Source: Myxococcaceae bacterium
GTDB taxonomy: Bacteria > Myxococcota > Myxococcia > Myxococcales > Myxococcaceae
Assembly (NCBI GenBank): GCA_025459425.1
Contig: JALOQF010000009.1
Span: 1 to 45,290, forward strand
Direction of reading: 5' to 3'
Length of the DNA: 45,290 nt
This document shows, in pieces, positions 26,056 to 43,900 of the stretch. Within the stretch, counting starts at the first letter, position 1. Every line of letters begins with the position of its first letter. The notes under the pieces are model-generated. The model had not been told where the DNA came from, searched no databases, and saw nothing but the letters and a program-made list of their open reading frames with translations. The position numbers and the translations under genes were made by a program.

Positions 26056-26242
26056 CCGCCGGTCTGTGAAGATTGCCGTGGCCTCCATCGCCCTGTCGCG
26101 GCCTTGTCGGCGGAGCCGTGCGCAAGCCGATGCACGGGCGGCTCCACGCGTTCGATGTCTCGCCATCTCCTGGTCGACTGGGCGCCCGAGCGGCGCGGCC
26201 TGCGCTGTCTGCTCGAGCGCGTGGAGTGCGCTCCCCAGCGTC

Positions 26243-26312
26243 GTCCACCTGTTGACGGTTTTGGTCAACCAGTTGACGTCAACCTGTTGACCAAAACCGT
26301 CAACACGTGGAC
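26243..26312. repeat. 70-bp nested palindrome, copy A
   Basis: A palindrome centred between 26277 and 26278 with only 3 mismatched pairs of 35. Its blocks, left to right, are GTCCAC (26243), GTTGAC (26251), GGTTTTG, GTCAAC (26264), GTTGAC+GTCAAC (26272-26283), GTTGAC (26286), CAAAACC, GTCAAC (26299) and GTGGAC (26307). Three smaller inverted repeats are thus nested in the large one: two GTTGAC-N7-GTCAAC units and a central GTTGACGTCAAC. GC-rich flanks (to about 26228 and 26327) share CTCCCGGAGC-like sequence with copy B. Copy B at 37023-37092 is inverted relative to this one. Confidence 0.85.
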
Positions 26313-26463
26313 ACGCTCCGGGAGGCGGGGGCCCCGGCGAGCGCCTGGCGCGTTGAGTTCGTCGCGCGAGGGCCCCGGGTTTTCCGAGTGGAGCACCGCC
26401 ACGACTGGTGAGACCAACCGGCCGTCGACGCGGCAATCATCGGGGACCGGCCCGAGGACCGTT

Positions 26464-26804
26464 CCGCACGTGCGTCTGGCCTCAGAGCTCGGCTTCGGCC
26501 CCATCGACCCGCGCATCACGCCGCACCTTCGTCTGGCCTCGGAGCTCGGCTTCGGCCCCATCGACCCGAGCACCATGCCGCACCTTCGTCTGGCCTCAGA
26601 ACTCGGCTTCGGCCCCATCGACCCACGCATCACGCCGCACCTTCGTCTGGCCTCGGAGCTCGGCTTCGGCCCATCGACCCGCGCACCACGCCGCACCTTC
26701 GTCTGGCCTCGGAGCACGGCTTCATCCCCATCGACCCGAGCACCGTGCCGCACGTTCGTCTGGCCTCGGAGCACGGCTTCACCCCCATCGACCCGAGCGA
26801 CCGG
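26464..26804. repeat. 57-bp tandem repeat, six units
   Basis: Direct repeats start at 26464, 26521, 26578, 26635, 26691 and 26748. All units are 57 bp except the fourth, which is 56 bp. The unit contains CTTCGTCTGGCCTCGGAGC and GGCTTCGGCCCCATCGACCC. Because 57 is divisible by 3, one plus-strand frame reads a 19-residue repeat (PHLRLASELGFGPIDPRIT), but the 1-bp deletion in unit 4 breaks it. It lies about 150 bp after palindrome A. It is not a CRISPR, as units are contiguous without spacers. Confidence 0.88.
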
Positions 26805-27365
26805 TGGGCGCGACACGGTCGACGAGCGGGCCGACTTCCAGCGTCGCCTCATCCACGCCTCGACGGCGCGGGCGACTCCCCCGGAGAAGGAGGGGCTGAC
26901 ATGGCCGAACGCACGCGAGAACGACGCCGTCGCGCCACCCCCAATCCAGGAGACCGACCTCGGCGCGGTGTCGACATCGCCATCAGTCCCCGCGACGTCA
27001 CAGGCGACGGACCGCGTCGCCCCCGAAGCCACGTCCGCGTGCACCGCAGCGTCGCTCATCGGCCGGAGCCGGGCAGGGGCTGAACCTTCACCACCCATGA
27101 AATGACCGGCCGAACGGGCTCGACAGGCCGCGCGATTCGGGCGACCACCGCGCCCTCCCGAGGCTTCGGAGCCCCCAGGCGCCCCTCGCTCCCACAGGCC
27201 ACCGCGGCCAGGAACCGCTGGCGCCGCACGCCGCGGGAGTCCCCCGATGTCCTTCGACGCAAGCGCCGAGCTGCCGAGGCCCGTTCACCGCGCGGGAGAA
27301 GCCGCCCAACCGACGGCCACCCAAGCGCACGTCACCCGGGCGTGAGGGCTGCGGCCACAGCCCAC

Positions 27366-36040: not shown

Positions 36041-36654
36041 GGCTTCCTCCTGGGGCTCAGACCCTCGAGGTGCTGCGCGAAGAGGGTCTCGGTGAAGGCC
36101 AGCGGCGTGGGCGTCGCGCCCTGCACCCAGCCGATGAGGGCGAAGTAGAAGAACGAGAGCCACGCGGCCGCGACGACGTCGGGCGACACCGAGCCGTCGA
36201 GCCGGCCGGCCTCGACCTCTCGCCGCGCCAGCTGCGCCACCGCCTGGTGCACCCGCTGCGCCTGCGCCACGAAGCCCTTCGCCCAGGTGCCCTCGGCGAA
36301 GAGGGACTCCTTGAGCAGCGTGCGCGAGAGCGCCGGGCGCTTCTGGTAGTAGCCGAAGACGGCGCTGCCGAGCGCCGAGGCCTCTTTCACGAGGGGCTTC
36401 GTGCCGATGCGCGCCAGCGCGCGGTCGAGCGTGACCTCGAGGTCGTCGAAGAGGGCCGCGTGCAGGAGCTCGCGCTTGTCGCCGAAGTGGTGGAGCACCG
36501 TGCCGGCCGAGACGTTCGCGCGCCGGGCGATGGAACGAACGTTGGCCGCTTCGAACCCGACCGCCTCGAACTCGTCGCGCGCGGCGGCCAGCACGGCCTC
36601 GCGGGTCGCTGCCTTCTGCTGAGCCCGGACCCCCGTTTCGCCAACCGCGTTCAT
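36037..36654 (-). CDS. TetR/AcrR-family repressor of the adjacent hydrolase
   Basis: A 205-residue regulator. A TetR helix-turn-helix lies at about residues 15-60: TREAVLAAARDEFEAVGFEA, then VRSIARRANVSAGTVLHHFG and KRELLHAALFDDL, all standard. The C-terminal ligand domain includes a Trp-rich pocket (WAKGFVAQA, FFYFALIGWVQG). ATG 36654 is inside a candidate operator. Its stop overlaps the hydrolase start (ATGA). Autoregulation of the TetR-hydrolase operon is inferred from this layout. Confidence 0.9.
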   Translation of the reverse strand: MNAVGETGVRAQQKAATREAVLAAARDEFEAVGFEAANVRSIARRANVSAGTVLHHFGDKRELLHAALFDDLEVTLDRALARIGTKPLVKEASALGSAVFGYYQKRPALSRTLLKESLFAEGTWAKGFVAQAQRVHQAVAQLARREVEAGRLDGSVSPDVVAAAWLSFFYFALIGWVQGATPTPLAFTETLFAQHLEGLSPRRKP

Positions 36655-36677
36655 TGAACTTGTTTAACCAAATGAAC
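36649..36677. promoter_or_regulatory. Candidate operator of the TetR-hydrolase operon
   Basis: GTTCATT (36649-36655) and AATGAAC (36671-36677) form an inverted repeat around the TetR start codon. Inside it TTGAACTTGTTTAA (36654-36667) is a second imperfect palindrome. The stretch is conspicuously AT-rich for this genome. Binding here would stop transcription of both genes. Which of the two palindromes is the real site is unclear. Confidence 0.5.
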
Positions 36678-37022
36678 CACGGCGAGTCAAGCTGAAGGGC
36701 TGCACCGGGGAGGTGTTCCTGTGGCGGAGGGAGCACGCCTCCATTCCGTCGGCCGCCTTCACCGAGCTGCAGGCCGTGGCCCGGCGACGTGCGCCAGCTG
36801 AAGAACATCCTCCAGCGTCGATGAGCGCTCGGCCAACGACGTGCAACGGAACTCCGTGAGGGGAACGCCCACGCGGACCGCGCTCCAGCTGGCGAGGCCC
36901 TGAAGTGAGGCCGTGGCGAGGTGGGCGCTCCGAGGCCTCGGGGGACGAAGGCGCGACAGGAATCCACCCTCGTCCGAAGCTCCATTCACCGAGGCGGGAG
37001 GGCGACTCGCTCCCCGGAGCGT
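36678..37022. other. Gene-free stretch left of palindrome B
   Basis: About 345 bp upstream of the TetR gene with no supportable gene; the short open frames have no start context or domain. The final 15 bp are the GC-rich flank of palindrome B. Confidence 0.5.
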
Positions 37023-37092
37023 GTCCACGTGTTGACGGTTTTGGTCAACAGGTTGACGTCAATGTGTTGACGGTTTCCGTCAACAGGTGGAC
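37023..37092. repeat. 70-bp nested palindrome, copy B
   Basis: Same block order and the same 70-bp length as copy A: GTCCAC (37023), GTTGAC (37031), GGTTTTG, GTCAAC (37044), GTTGAC+GTCAAT (37052-37063), GTTGAC (37066), GGTTTCC, GTCAAC (37079) and GTGGAC (37087). Read against the reverse complement of copy A, the first 40 bases and the last 16 are identical, and about 62 of 70 agree overall. The main difference is the second 7-base spacer, GGTTTCC here and CAAAACC in copy A, as if that spacer had been inverted. It lies between the TetR gene and the 3' end of the next hydrolase gene. Confidence 0.85.
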
Positions 37093-37176
37093 AGCTCCCG
37101 GGAGGCGACCTCCTCCCTCTGGACCGGCGCCTCGCCAGAGCGGTCGTGACGAGCGCGGACGCCTCGCCGTCCGGGC

Positions 37177-38247
37177 TCACTTCGTCACTCGAGGCTCCGG
37201 AGCGCCCCCCTCGCCCCCGCCTTGCCTCGAGGCTGCCCCGTCTCGCGCCTCCGTCCCTTCCCCGCCAACCTCTTCGAGGAACGCCACCATCGCCGCCGCC
37301 AGCTCGTCCCGCGCAGGCACCTCGAGCGGCAAATGACTCCCGTTCGAAAGCCGAACGAGCGTCTTCTCCCCTGCGAACCGCTCGAACGTCGGCAGACTCA
37401 ACGCAGTCGGCGTCCACGCATCGGCGCCCGGGTGCGCCAGCAACAGCGGCGTCGTCATCGCCTCGGGCTCGACGGCCGGAGGCGTTCGCCCCATCGAGCG
37501 CCAGAACCCGAACGGCATCGCCTTCGCGACGAACGGGTCCTTCCGATACTCCGCGAGCACCCCTTCGTCCGACGTCATCAAGTCGAGCGGAGCGACCCAA
37601 CTCAACGGAACCCACCACCCATCGAGCGCTCCACCCTTCCCCAACCCATCCGATAGCCGGGAGAGCGCGGGCGACGTCGCCACCTGCGCTCGCACCGCCG
37701 CTTCCCGCAGGTCGAGCAACGTCGTCACCATCACCCCATCGACGTCGCCGTTGCCCGCCGCGGCGTGCCACGCGAGCGTGCCGCCAATCGAGAGCCCACA
37801 CAGCACGACTCGACGACCCGTTCGTACACGCTCCTGCCGCACCACCTCGCGCACCACGTCGACCCACAGGCTCCACGTCAACGCGACCCTCGACGGCACC
37901 GTCGTCAGCCCGAAGCCAGGCAGATCGGGCGCCACCGACTCGTAGCCAGCGCGCGCCAACATCAAGCCGATGGGCGCCAACAGACGTCCGTGGCCACCGC
38001 CGCCATGCACCAGCACCACCAACACGTCCTTCGGCTGGGCCATCGGCCGGTGTCGGTCGAGGTGCACGTCGAGCCGCCCCACCGGCAGCCGCTCCTCGAC
38101 GATGGGAAACGCCGCGTCGTCACGCACTGCCTCGGGCAGTACGGCGTTCCACGCCACGACGTGGGGGTGCCCGGCGTACACGGCGGGCCGAACGGCAGCA
38201 CACCCAGCCGCCAGCAGCACGAGGAGGAGCAGCACCAGTCGCGTCAT
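37177..38247 (-). CDS. Alpha/beta hydrolase lipoprotein
   Basis: A 356-residue exported serine hydrolase. The signal MTRLVLLLLVLLAAGC ends in a lipobox. LVVLVHGGGGHGRLLAP contains the oxyanion-hole HGG, LCGLSIGG the nucleophile Ser, HPGADAWTP the Asp and GSHLPLE the His, so the triad is complete. A cap region of about 90 residues is rich in Trp (WWVPLSW). The C-terminal 30 residues are low complexity. It is divergent from a TetR gene across 46 bp, a classic arrangement for control by that regulator. Substrate unknown; membrane-anchored esterase or lipase is likely. Confidence 0.85.
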   Translation of the reverse strand: MTRLVLLLLVLLAAGCAAVRPAVYAGHPHVVAWNAVLPEAVRDDAAFPIVEERLPVGRLDVHLDRHRPMAQPKDVLVVLVHGGGGHGRLLAPIGLMLARAGYESVAPDLPGFGLTTVPSRVALTWSLWVDVVREVVRQERVRTGRRVVLCGLSIGGTLAWHAAAGNGDVDGVMVTTLLDLREAAVRAQVATSPALSRLSDGLGKGGALDGWWVPLSWVAPLDLMTSDEGVLAEYRKDPFVAKAMPFGFWRSMGRTPPAVEPEAMTTPLLLAHPGADAWTPTALSLPTFERFAGEKTLVRLSNGSHLPLEVPARDELAAAMVAFLEEVGGEGTEARDGAASRQGGGEGGAPEPRVTK

Positions 38248-38251
38248 GCAT

Positions 38252-38266
38252 CAGAGGTAGGCTCTG
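38252..38266. promoter_or_regulatory. Candidate TetR operator between divergent genes
   Basis: CAGAG-N5-CTCTG, an inverted repeat of 15 bp, lies in the 46-bp space between the hydrolase lipoprotein and the divergent TetR gene, 4 bp from the hydrolase start. A single site there could control both directions. Confidence 0.4.
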
Positions 38267-38293
38267 CTGACGCCCCTGGCGACTCACGTTCCC

Positions 38294-38947
38294 ATGCCCC
38301 GCCGCCGCCCCCTCAACCCACGGAAAACACCGCGCCAATCGCGCTCGCAGGCGACCGTCGACGCCATCGTCGAGGCGACCACTCAGCTTCTGCGCGAGTT
38401 CGGGCCGGACGGCACCACCACCGCGCGCATCGCCAAACGGGCCGGCACCAGCGTTGGCTCGCTCTACCAGTACTTCCCCACCCGCGAGGCCCTCGTGGCC
38501 GCCGTGGCCCAACGACACCTCGACGCACTCACTGCTGCGCTGGCCCGGGGCCTGGGGCCCGACGCCCTGACCGCTCCGCTGCATGACGTCGTTCACGCCC
38601 TCGTCACCGCCGCCGTCGAAGCCCACGCCCGCGACCCACGCGTGCACGCCGCCCTCGTGACCGAGCTCGCGCGCGCCGGAGCGACGGACTTCGCCGCCAC
38701 CACGCTCGAGCACCTCACGACGCTCGTCGAGGGCCTGCTCGTCGCGCGCGCCGACCTGCGCGTGCCAGACCCTCGCCTCGCCGCCTTTCTGCTCGTGCGC
38801 CTCGTCGACGGGCTCACGCACGCCGCCGTCCTCGACGCGCCCCACTGGCTGTCTCAGCCGGACTTCACCACCGAGGTGGTGCGCCTCATCGAGGCCTGGC
38901 TCTCGCACCATGCGCCTGCCGTCGGGAGCGCACCCGATGCGGGCTGA
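38294..38947 (+). CDS. TetR/AcrR-family regulator
   Basis: A 217-residue repressor. After a basic start (PRRRPLNPRKTPRQSRS), the helix-turn-helix is at about residues 20-68: VDAIVEATTQLLREFG, then ARIAKRAGTSVGSLYQYFP and REALVAAVAQRH. The Ala-rich C-terminal domain (about 85-205) binds the effector; FLLVRLVDGLTHAAVL is the dimer-forming helix. It is divergent from the hydrolase lipoprotein, its probable target. The third-residue Arg cluster is stronger than usual for the family. Confidence 0.9.
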   Translation: MPRRRPLNPRKTPRQSRSQATVDAIVEATTQLLREFGPDGTTTARIAKRAGTSVGSLYQYFPTREALVAAVAQRHLDALTAALARGLGPDALTAPLHDVVHALVTAAVEAHARDPRVHAALVTELARAGATDFAATTLEHLTTLVEGLLVARADLRVPDPRLAAFLLVRLVDGLTHAAVLDAPHWLSQPDFTTEVVRLIEAWLSHHAPAVGSAPDAG

Positions 38948-39108
38948 AGCAGACGCGCAGCAGGCCCGGCCCGACGACGCACGCACCGTCGAGCCCCTCC
39001 GCGGCCTGGCATCACACGGACCACTCTTCACGAGCGTGACCTCGTCGACGCACCCGGGGGCCGACGCCCTCGAAGCCGTCGCCGAGCACCGCGACCTCGG
39101 AGCTGCCC

Positions 39109-40965: not shown

Positions 40966-43900
40966 GTGCCGTCGTTCGTCGTTCGACTCCCAGATGCCCA
41001 GGCGCTCCGCCGGTTCGGCGAGGAGACGCGGGCGACACGCTCGTGCTTCGTCGCCACCGAGGCCGAGACGGACATGGGTGCCCTCCTGGAGCTCGAGGTC
41101 TCCGTCGGCGCTCGCCGGGTTGCGCTGCAAGCCGAGGTCTGTGGCCTCGAGGTGGACGCGACGGGAAGAGCCGGGCTGCGGGTCGCGCTCGAAGACGCGG
41201 CGCTCACGGCGTTGTCGGCCTTCGTCGAGGCCGTCGCTGGACCAGCGCCCACCCCACTCGACGAGGAGCCCACCACCAACCCAGACCTCCTTGCGCTGGG
41301 GCCAGTGCCCCTCACCGCGCCGCCGGCCGTGCGCCTCGACGCCAGTTGGCCCATACCGAGCGCGCCGCGACAGTCTTCCGGCGAGACGGCCGTTCGCATC
41401 GACGCCGCAGCGCCGGTGCCGAACTCACCACACCAGCCGTCCGGCGTGGCGCCAACGCTGCCGGCGCCCGGCATCCGCATCGACGCCGCGAGGCCCGTGC
41501 CGAGCGGGCGCTCCGAGACGACGCCAGCGCCGCAGGCGTCCGCCATTCGCATCGACGCTGCGCGGCCCGTCCCGAGCGCGCCACGACAGCCGTCCGAATC
41601 GACGCCAGCGCCGCAGCCGCCCGCTATCCGCATCGACGCCGCCCGGCCCGTGCCGAGCGCGCCCTCTGAGACGACACCAGCGCCGCAGGCGTCCGGCATT
41701 CGCATCGACGCCGCCAGGCCCGTGCCGAGCGCGCCACGACAGCCGTCCGAATCGACGCCAGCGCCGCAGCCGCCTGCCATCCGCATCGACGCCGCCAGGC
41801 CAGTCCCGAGCGCGCCGCGCCAGCCGTCCGAGACGACGCCAGCGCCGCAGCCGCCGGCCATTCGCATCGACGCCGCCCGCCCAGTCCCGAGCGCGCCCCC
41901 TGAGACGACACCAGCGCCGCAGGCGTCCGGCATTCGCATCGACGCCGCCAGGCCCGTGCCGAGCGCGCCCTCCGAGACGGCGCCAGCGCCGCAGCCGCCC
42001 GCGATTCGCATCGATGCTGCGCGGCCAGTCCCGAGCGCTCCCTCCGACACGACGCCAACGCCGCAGCCGCCCGCCATCCGCATCGACGCCGCCAGGCCCG
42101 TCCCGAGCGCGCCACGCCAGCCCTCAGAGACGACGCCAACGCCGCAGCCGCCCGCCATCCGCATCGACGCCGCCAGGCCCGTCCCGAGCGCGCCACGCCA
42201 GCCGTCCGAGACGACGCCTGCCCGCCTCGACGTCGCGGGGCGCCAGCCGGGCGCCGAGTCGTCGCCGCCTGCCGGCCCCCGCCCACCGAGCGTGACCAGC
42301 CCGCCGAGTGGCGTGGCCCGAGTCACGCGCCCAGACGGAACGGGCCTCACGCCCGCCTTCACGCCGATGGCCTCGACTCGGGCCACGGCACCCGATGGGC
42401 GCGTCGGCCGCCTGTCGGAGCTCAACGCCGCCCTCGGGTTTCCCCTCTCACCGCAGCGCCTCGCCCACGCCGAACACGTTCGCGCGCAGCTCCCCGAGGT
42501 GATGCCCATCGCGTGGCTGCTCGGCGTCGAGTTCGGGCGCTCGACCGACCCGCTCGCCTTCTCGACGCTCCTCTCGCTCTGCGTCGACGTCGCGGTGCCT
42601 CTGGGCGGCGCCCTCGACGTCTTCAGCCAGGCCTCTGCCGTCTTCGTCTTCTTCGGCCTCGGCTCCCAGGCGAACGCCGCGCTGGCTGCTGCCGAGCTGC
42701 GGGAGCGCCTCGAGCTGCTCGCCGACGGACAACCGGCGGCGCCCACGCTCAAGCTGGCGCTGACGGGCTCGCGGCTGCGCGCCGACCCCGACACCGGCGT
42801 CGAGGGTGATGGCCTGCAGTCGCTCCAGACGCTCCTGCGCCGTGCGACGGCCGGCCAGTGCCATGCCGCCCGCAACCTCGCGCTCGGCGTGAGCGACCTC
42901 GTCGAGTGGGCGCCCGCCAACGACGACATGCGCCTCGTCGGCCGACGCGCCGCGCCCATCAACCCGCCGGCGAGCGTCGGGCTCGAGCCGCTCCTCCGCC
43001 TTCTGGACACGCGCGTGCTCGGGCTCGAACGCGGCGCCGTCTCGCCCGTCGTCGTCACCGGCCCCCGGCGGTCTGGCCGCTCGCACCTCGCGCTCGAGTT
43101 CGCGCGTCGCGCGCACGCGCAGGGCTGCCTCGTCGCACACACCACGTCGCTCAAGGGTGACGGCCGCCCGCTCTCGGCCGTCGTCGAGCTGCTCTGCCAG
43201 GTGGCGCGGGTGCCCTTCGAGGCGCGCCACGCGGCGTTGGCCCCTGCGCTCGAGGCGCTCCGCGTCGCGCCGGAGCGTCGCCACGCCGCGCTGGTGCTGG
43301 CCGGCATCGAGCCGTCGCCCACGCCCTTCACGCCCAGACAGGTGACGGACGCGCTGCGCCTGGTGCTGGCCGACGTCGCCGACGGGCGCCGCCGCGTGCT
43401 CGTCTTCGATGGCCTCGACCACGCCGACGCCGAGAGCGCCCGCGCCTTCGTCGAGCTGTTCCGCACGCCACAGCCCCGCGAGCTGCTCGTCGGCCTGGCC
43501 TCACCCGAGCTCGCCGCCAGCCTCTCGCTCGACGCGACGCTCGGCGTCCCCACGCTCACCCTGGCCGAGGTCGACGCGCTGCTCACCGCCAGCCTCGGCA
43601 GCTCGCCCGTCGAGCTGCGCGACGTCCTCTTCGCGCGCTCCGGTGGGTACCCCGGCCTGGTGATGGAGCTGCTGCTCCTCACGGCGAGCCGGGGCGGGCT
43701 GCGGCCACGCGGCGAGACGCTCATGCTCGAGGGCACCGTACCGCTGGTGGCGCCGGCCGAGCTGCCACGCGCGCGGCTGCTCGCCGAGGGCACGCGGGTG
43801 GCGCGGCTCCTCGAGGTGGTGTGGCTGCTCGGAGACTTCGCCGAGAGCGCCACCGTCGCGCGGGTGCTGCCCGACGTCACCAACGCCGCCTGGCCACGCG

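Follow-up and report, generated by a model that had tools for sequence, protein, structure and literature searches.

A MITE- and BOX-like intergenic repeat family in uncultured Myxococcales, with a palindromic core that may be copied between its frames

Our study identified the 70-bp nested palindrome of a 45,290-nucleotide stretch of Myxococcaceae DNA (the window, by which we mean the whole stretch analysed) as the core of an element that spans about 300-350 bp in all. With a probability of roughly 0.6, we regard this family as a genus-restricted, non-autonomous, intergenic repeat of the MITE/BOX-like kind, whose palindromic core would have been copied between frames within the genome. The element is laid out as two inverted half-elements, each with a TIR-like end, an 18-mer box, a variable spacer and a G+C-rich arm, around a palindromic core that measures about 70-100 bp across elements. 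The frame is dispersed, its ends fall at similar positions in unrelated loci, one orthologous site is empty and two are shared, and its insertions are probably mostly old. The first-pass annotation had offered three guesses about the palindrome: that of a non-autonomous mobile element gains from the dispersal, the TIR-like ends, the empty site and the restriction to one genus; that of a binding site has been weakened; and that of a recombinase target found no direct support, while replacement of cores in place would suit a recombination-driven model. Our genus sample consists of seven genomes of uncultured Myxococcales (G000 to G006), all of them drafts or MAGs, and the window is contig C537 of G000, a draft of 8.41 Mb in 651 contigs that is about 90% complete.

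Re-pairing of copy A reproduced the 32 of 35 pairs, the zero-length centre and the hexamers described in the first-pass annotation, which run in the order GTCCAC-NN-GTTGAC-N7-GTCAAC-NN-GTTGACGTCAAC-NN-GTTGAC-N7-GTCAAC-NN-GTGGAC. Copy B does share the length and the order, as stated there, but only 27 of its 35 positions pair and its central unit, GTTGACGTCAAT, is one base off. Both copies are intergenic, as had been claimed, each sitting between genes of a codon-usage prediction that we scripted ourselves. Six pairs of the form GTTGAC-N(0-30)-GTCAAC occur in the window, where shuffling gives 0.08 on average, and none of 100 shuffles reached six. The predicted RNA folds have z-scores of -10.4 for copy A and -9.4 for copy B, with equal stability in 0 of 200 shuffles, and a slightly longer stretch than the copy B element folds as DNA into a single hairpin with a z-score of -7.7. 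The features of both copies are collected in Table 1.

Table 1. Parts of the two elements in the window (positions are those of the window)
Feature	Position	Strand	Basis or remark
Copy A palindromic core, GTTGAC type	26243..26312	+	Pairing and alignment
Copy A left outer arm, G+C-rich, approximate	26223..26242	.	Alignment; exact ends putative
Copy A right outer arm, G+C-rich, approximate	26313..26332	.	Alignment; exact ends putative
Tandem repeat of a 57-bp unit, 5.8 copies, separating the copy A core from the closest inward box	26464..26795	.	
Inward box, GCGCTCCGAAGCCTCGAG at 2 mismatches, to the right of the copy A centre at a distance of 897 bp	27157..27174	-	Assignment to copy A putative
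Copy B whole element, 344 bp	36896..37239	.	Ends are the best match to the GGCTCT-like terminus; right end weakly placed
Copy B left box, 18-mer with 2 mismatches	36925..36942	+	
Copy B left arm, G+C-rich	37007..37022	.	Inverted pair 37007-37057/37058-37108
Copy B palindromic core, GTTGAC type	37023..37092	-	GGAAACC-left orientation is the minus strand
Copy B right arm, G+C-rich	37093..37108	.	Inverted pair 37007-37057/37058-37108
Copy B right box, 18-mer with 1 mismatch	37188..37205	-	

The palindrome had been reported to occur twice; in the whole of G000 we count 21 copies. With three mismatches allowed, its pattern matched 18+18 times and the reversed control 0+0 times; a broader pattern followed by a covariance model brought the number of distinct cores to 21. 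Sixteen of these are of a GTTGAC type with GTCCAC/GTGGAC-like ends, and five are of a GGTGAC type with GTAAAC/GTTTAC-like ends. The GTTGAC-type cores have a direction, since in 15 of the 16 a GGAAACC-like loop faces a CAAAACC-like loop across the centre; copy A is the sole exception, with complementary side loops (GGTTTTG/CAAAACC) such as a template switch inside the palindrome might leave. The exact sequence GTTGACG-N5-CGTCAAC was never found outside elements in G000, and its wider form GKTGACG-N5-CGTCAMC occurs there exactly at 30 places, 24 in elements and 6 outside (GGTGAC or mixed). When one mismatch is allowed, the wider form is present at 164 places against 12 for the reversed control; most of the 164 lie outside elements.

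None of the 21 cores overlaps a predicted gene. At the 19 copies with both neighbours known, ten gene pairs run in the same direction, five are convergent and four divergent, which is near the background of all neighbouring pairs in the G000 stretches examined (134 same, 39 convergent and 38 divergent). Forty-nine of 54 neighbour proteins from G000 and its relatives (37 from G000; five left out) were scanned against Pfam, the commonest families occurring in 3/49 each, and among these proteins and the 25 of 91 families listed no neighbour common to the copies is evident. The idea that the family consists of chance palindromes or is an artefact of assembly draws on the fragmentation of the drafts, in which contigs C186, C273, C289 and C336 of G000 end close to a box or core; we give it practically no credence, considering that neither the window count nor the genome-wide pattern was approached by its control, that the family is present in other genomes, and that two copies are orthologous.

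Outward from the core, a G+C-rich arm is followed by an inward-facing 18-mer box, GCGCTCCGAAGCCTCGAG, which recurs across copies. At least one inward box lies within 300 bp of the core in 18 of the 21 G000 copies when up to four mismatches are allowed, the three without one being copy A, C336 and C379; for copy A, the closest inward box lies past the tandem repeat of Table 1. At the same threshold, the left box is found 133-150 bp from the centre in 12/21 copies and at 166-195 bp in three more, and the right box at 122-135 bp in only 7/21; the box units are themselves repeated in C306, C158, C162 and C186. It is important to note that weak boxes are no evidence alone, because counts at one or two mismatches approach those of the reversed control: for the 18-mer with up to two mismatches, G000 gives 47 matches and the reversed pattern 27. 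In the window, six matches with up to three mismatches compare with a shuffled mean of 2.33, and five of 100 shuffles reach six, so that the box is not significant there by itself; its significance lies in its placement beside cores and in its exact matches across the genus.

The core is poor in G+C (51%) compared with the frame (74%) and the genome (71%) in G000. Alignments of paralogs in G003 and G004 span about 300-336 columns and their ends agree to within about 40 bp, and copy B measures 344 bp between ends placed by their match to a GGCTCT-like terminus (8/12 at the left and only 5/12 at the right, where placement is weak); these lengths, together with cores free of gene overlap, are as in MITEs. 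The inward 18-mer forms inverted terminal repeats around copy B and other paired copies, and many G000 copies are one-sided. Four of 20 paired elements scored at least 8/12 at both ends, and no shared run that could be a target-site duplication was seen in them; the null likewise gave none. Among the box sites listed, no inward box pair enclosing a long coding insert was noticed. The GGCTCT-like ends resemble termini of the ISL3 family; as no duplication was seen, we do not claim membership.

Between their fixed ends, the elements vary in their inner modules, and three-unit cores, one-unit cores or no recognisable core stand beside the same boxes. By reading, a single-unit core is present at G005:C441, G005:C268, G002:C437 and G002:C274, and the long palindrome is absent at G005:C77, G005:C275 and G002:C205 (at most 9-10 of 15 pairs), the second of which has another short hairpin, as judged by eye. 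Deletion between repeats within the palindrome would produce such shorter forms. Three further G005 places (C49, C81 and C153, in stretches L170, L184 and L187) show an AT-rich palindrome of 25-29 bp, like ATGGTTAGATAG(A/T)CTATCTAACCAT, at 94-170 bp from one good box and with the appearance of an operator; the palindrome in C81 has a mismatch in one arm. The second box at these three places is no better than chance, and we therefore do not count their palindromes as proven cores, only one box being above chance.

The structure that the core conserves was read from divergent copies, since the G000 copies, in which all hexamers are alike, fit one long hairpin as well as three small ones. In G003:C224, the side pairs agree with the long hairpin in 7+7 of 7 cases and with the small hairpins in 4+4 (14 against 8). 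Seven divergent copies from relatives were compared: that one clearly fits the long hairpin, two fit it slightly better (10 against 9 and 9 against 7), and four are ties. The long hairpin is thus preferred to a cloverleaf of three hairpins, though mainly through the single copy G003:C224. Changes on both sides affect 17 of its 35 pairs, a number also reached by 29 of 500 shuffles, and the covariation score of 0.195, against 0.082, was reached by none of 500; much of the paired change is one difference between the GTTGAC and GGTGAC types. These paired changes and the very stable folds could be expected if the palindrome acted in transcribed RNA, as a long hairpin on either strand serving as a processing signal, terminator or mRNA stabiliser in the manner of BIME or ERIC sequences. 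We find this reading very doubtful. Rfam yielded no family at its gathering score (the best, RsmW, had 18.2 bits against a gathering score of 52), convergent positions are not preferred, and template switching within a palindrome would also give symmetric arms. The view of the first-pass annotation that the palindrome is not a terminator agrees with the absence of any terminator-like site in 36650-37400, around copy B, and with a gene orientation near background; no promoter was seen either.

Further copies exist in related genomes, where their absence had been named as counting against the first-pass annotation. The exact 15-mer of the box, CTCCGAAGCCTCGAG, is present in six of the seven genus genomes at 51 sites (19 in G000, 13 in G003, 12 in G005, four in G002, two in G004, one in G001 and none in G006). 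Beyond the genus, it occurs in one of the 89 other family genomes searched, inside a coding frame. The reversed control of the 15-mer has three matches in G005 and one in a genome of another genus, and with one mismatch the excess is largely gone (37 in G000 against 28 for the reversed control). The single match in G001 has no palindrome in view and may be due to chance. The palindrome itself, in the form of model R1, has members in four of the seven genomes: 21 in G000, three in G002, and two each in G006 and G003. R1 is a covariance model that was built with the cloverleaf structure and applied to 150 first-look candidates per genome, and it missed several divergent members that the boxes revealed. 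A matS- or parS-like chromosome site, suggested by GTGAC/GTCAC, was also considered and was set aside on the 21 copies in G000 and the few or none in sister species.

Among named genomes, the exact palindrome pattern had 0 matches, and the box 18-mer was met in 36 stretches, 15 of which come from three MAGs; the remaining 21 are single matches without an inverted partner within 420 bp, although two of them (L202 and L225) lie so near the end of the stretch that a partner could escape notice. Copy B has no nucleotide match in plasmid and phage records, nor in an E. coli genome collection searched in a distant mode (E up to 1e-5), and two palindrome patterns have 0 exact matches in viral contigs. 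Among the papers listed from an open-access library, none dealt with such a repeat family in myxobacteria.

Comparison of orthologous sites shows that some insertions are shared between species. G002, the closest relative, carries copy B at the corresponding position, in a 593-column alignment of 74% identity that continues through the spacers into the next gene, and the C162 copy is likewise common to G000 and G002:C556 at an orthologous site. For the C115 copy, G003 (C181) has an empty site, with 187 bp between matching flanks against 664 in G000; a loss in G003 instead of an insertion in G000 is possible. G003 also lacks window positions 36696-39101, which include copy B, an alpha/beta hydrolase gene and a TetR gene, and has 11 bp between the flanking matches, and in G006 the hydrolase region lies elsewhere, without such a palindrome in the 6 kb examined there. 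At copy A, C64, C256 and C472, the relatives in which the flanking genes were matched do not have them side by side. As to elements being breakpoints of rearrangement, we make no claim, synteny being poor throughout the window region.

The evidence that core and frame evolve apart comes from comparing the two parts of the element. Within G000, the GTTGAC cores have a mean identity of 90% over 70 bp (120 pairs, lowest 80%), and their spacers can only partly be aligned; C95 and C529, for example, are 75% identical over 476 columns, yet by reading their core differs at one base. Between G000 and G002, the orthologous cores of copy B and C162 are identical at 56/70 and 55/70 positions, and the frame segments at 83/113, 123/176, 37/64 and 70/93 (58-75%, gap columns excluded). 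Copy B and C162 differ from the G000 consensus at 3/70 and 2/70 positions, and their G002 orthologs at 15 and 16. Part of this gap arises by construction, because the consensus includes both G000 copies and five positions differ in all three G002 copies. The rest of the gap suggests that maintenance or homogenisation of the core has been stronger in G000 than in G002.

Clearer cases are two orthologous sites of G003 and G004 with aligned surroundings that are 90-99% identical. At G003:C27/G004:C28, the frames agree at 68/93 and 75/83 positions and the core at 37/77; at G003:C205/G004:C9, the frames agree at 77/90 and 77/84 and the core at 34/77. Across both sites, the frame is thus 73-92% identical (the left value of 0.73 at one of them reflecting a degenerate box there) and the core 44-48%. 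At both, the core is of a GTCAGG type in G003 and of a GTAAAC type in G004. Since the orthologous frames are alike and the cores are not, core and frame have had separate histories at these two sites. Among paralogs, the three GTCAGG-type cores of G003 match at 68/73, 69/73 and 65/73 positions (89-95%) with frames 0.67-0.82 alike, and the two parts are barely decoupled in the pair of G004 paralogs compared (core 65/77, both frames 0.77). The contigs of G003 carry k141 names (the record being taken to be that of G003), against which shared stretches of about 75 bp are short; the risk of a misjoin at these sites is lowered, not removed. At the G003:C205 site (stretch L121, 7040-9690), two direct element copies flank about 2 kb with a 511-aa ORF that has no Pfam match, whereas G004 has one element only; the second G003 copy has lost the right part of its core.

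How such separate histories would arise can be outlined as follows. The frame may have been dispersed by a putative transposase acting in trans. The core would then be copied from frame to frame within a genome, giving paralogs with similar cores and orthologous frames with different ones, and the most likely route would be gene conversion between elements: the palindrome might extrude a cruciform or hairpin, whose breakage would provoke recombinational copying, with the frame arms supplying homology. Against this counts that conversion would have to act across 70-100 bp between frames that are 70-80% alike. Any effect on the host is probably incidental. As a more tentative extension, which we regard as possible and do not press, the core could be a protein-free selfish cassette, one core type sweeping the dispersed frames by biased gene conversion. 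Its extrusion and breakage would start repair from another element of the same genome, in the manner of a homing element that lacks an endonuclease gene, and from species to species older core types would give way to new ones.

The main rival reading, which we hold to be unlikely, is that the core is itself a small REP-like transposable palindrome that enters and leaves the centre of an older palindromic frame by means of a single-strand transposase. Coreless frames and single-unit cores exist, an unrelated AT-rich palindrome lies beside a box at the three G005 places, and the replaced segments stop near the palindrome ends at both G003/G004 ortholog sites; REP dimers inside larger target palindromes are moreover described in PMC3733652. 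However, deletion of the core would leave identical coreless frames, exact GTTGACG-N5-CGTCAAC does not occur outside elements in G000, as noted above, no transposase was noticed beside the core, and no unpaired GTAG/CGTC tag was found by eye in the alignments, in line with the earlier statement that this is not an ordinary REP.

We consider it improbable that the palindrome is a multi-dimer binding site for a putative sequence-specific protein, such as a regulator, nucleoid or segregation factor, whose repeated GTTGACG/CGTCAAC half-sites would be targets kept by selection. Variation is among the lowest at GACG, CGTC and the centre, two discrete core types coexist, and the one-mismatch half-site pattern far exceeds its control. 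The closeness of copy B and C162 to the G000 consensus, compared with their G002 orthologs, would also fit, given that constraint by a bound protein would likewise make the G000 cores alike. Nevertheless, orthologous sites carry different core types, G003:C224 has not kept the half-site repeat, gene orientation is near background, and R1 copies number 21 in G000 against three, two, two or none in relatives. Core switching, together with the lack of exact GTTGACG-N5-CGTCAAC outside elements, weakens this reading.

Small dispersed repeats of bacteria are usually treated as inserting once and then decaying, and here the centre and the frame differ in history at two orthologous sites. If the mosaic holds in complete genomes, the similarity of repeat copies need not date their insertion, and the family would offer a natural system on long palindromes that copy themselves through breakage and repair.

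Several known repeats may be compared with this family. ERIC/IRU repeats are imperfect palindromes, intergenic and MITE-like, and ours resembles them as an imperfect intergenic palindrome of MITE-like character; it differs in size, and the E. coli genome collection contains nothing that matches copy B. The abstract of PMC2759123 names a 127-bp RU-1. REPs of the GTAG/CGTC super-families are described in PMC3733652 as units of 20-40 bp with an unpaired GTAG or CGTC tag, palindromic and intergenic as ours are, and occurring as dimers or inside larger palindromes; unlike them, our family has CGTC paired in the stem and a unit about ten times longer, which places it outside that definition. With MITEs, as characterised in PMC10969869, it shares a length within 50-500 bp, inverted terminal repeats, an intergenic position, presence or absence between species and a core AT-richer than the genome (51% against 71% G+C); it departs from that description in its G+C-rich frame (74%), and neither a duplicated target site nor an autonomous partner was seen among the elements and box sites covered. 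BOX elements of Streptococcus pneumoniae and S. suis are presented in PMC3049150 as small interspersed repeats with TIRs, predicted stem-loops and slow turnover. Our elements share with them fixed end modules and inner modules variable in number or kind, whereas the hosts are different, the likeness is one of description, and the myxobacterial inner module is a long palindrome that differs between species at orthologous sites. By analogy, the family would seem to work like BOX elements and MITEs.

Some minor observations concern the surroundings of the elements. Tandem arrays adjoin some other cores besides copy A (70 bp at C306, 66 bp at C336 and 121 bp at C472), and elements may be hot spots for tandem duplication. 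In G000:C186 (stretch L080, 8118-8451), box units follow one another at a spacing of 127 bp and the contig end closes with a fold-back, which is probably an assembly artefact; a close relative is found in C162. Window positions 41389-42225, in or near large ORFs, hold a long and degenerate tandem repeat, its periods being 72-153 bp. Upstream of the element in G000:C158 lies the gene (stretch L032, 1164-2693) of a glycine-rich protein of 509 aa, whose Cys-containing, hydrophobic and Arg-rich tail resembles a MYXO-CTERM sorting signal.
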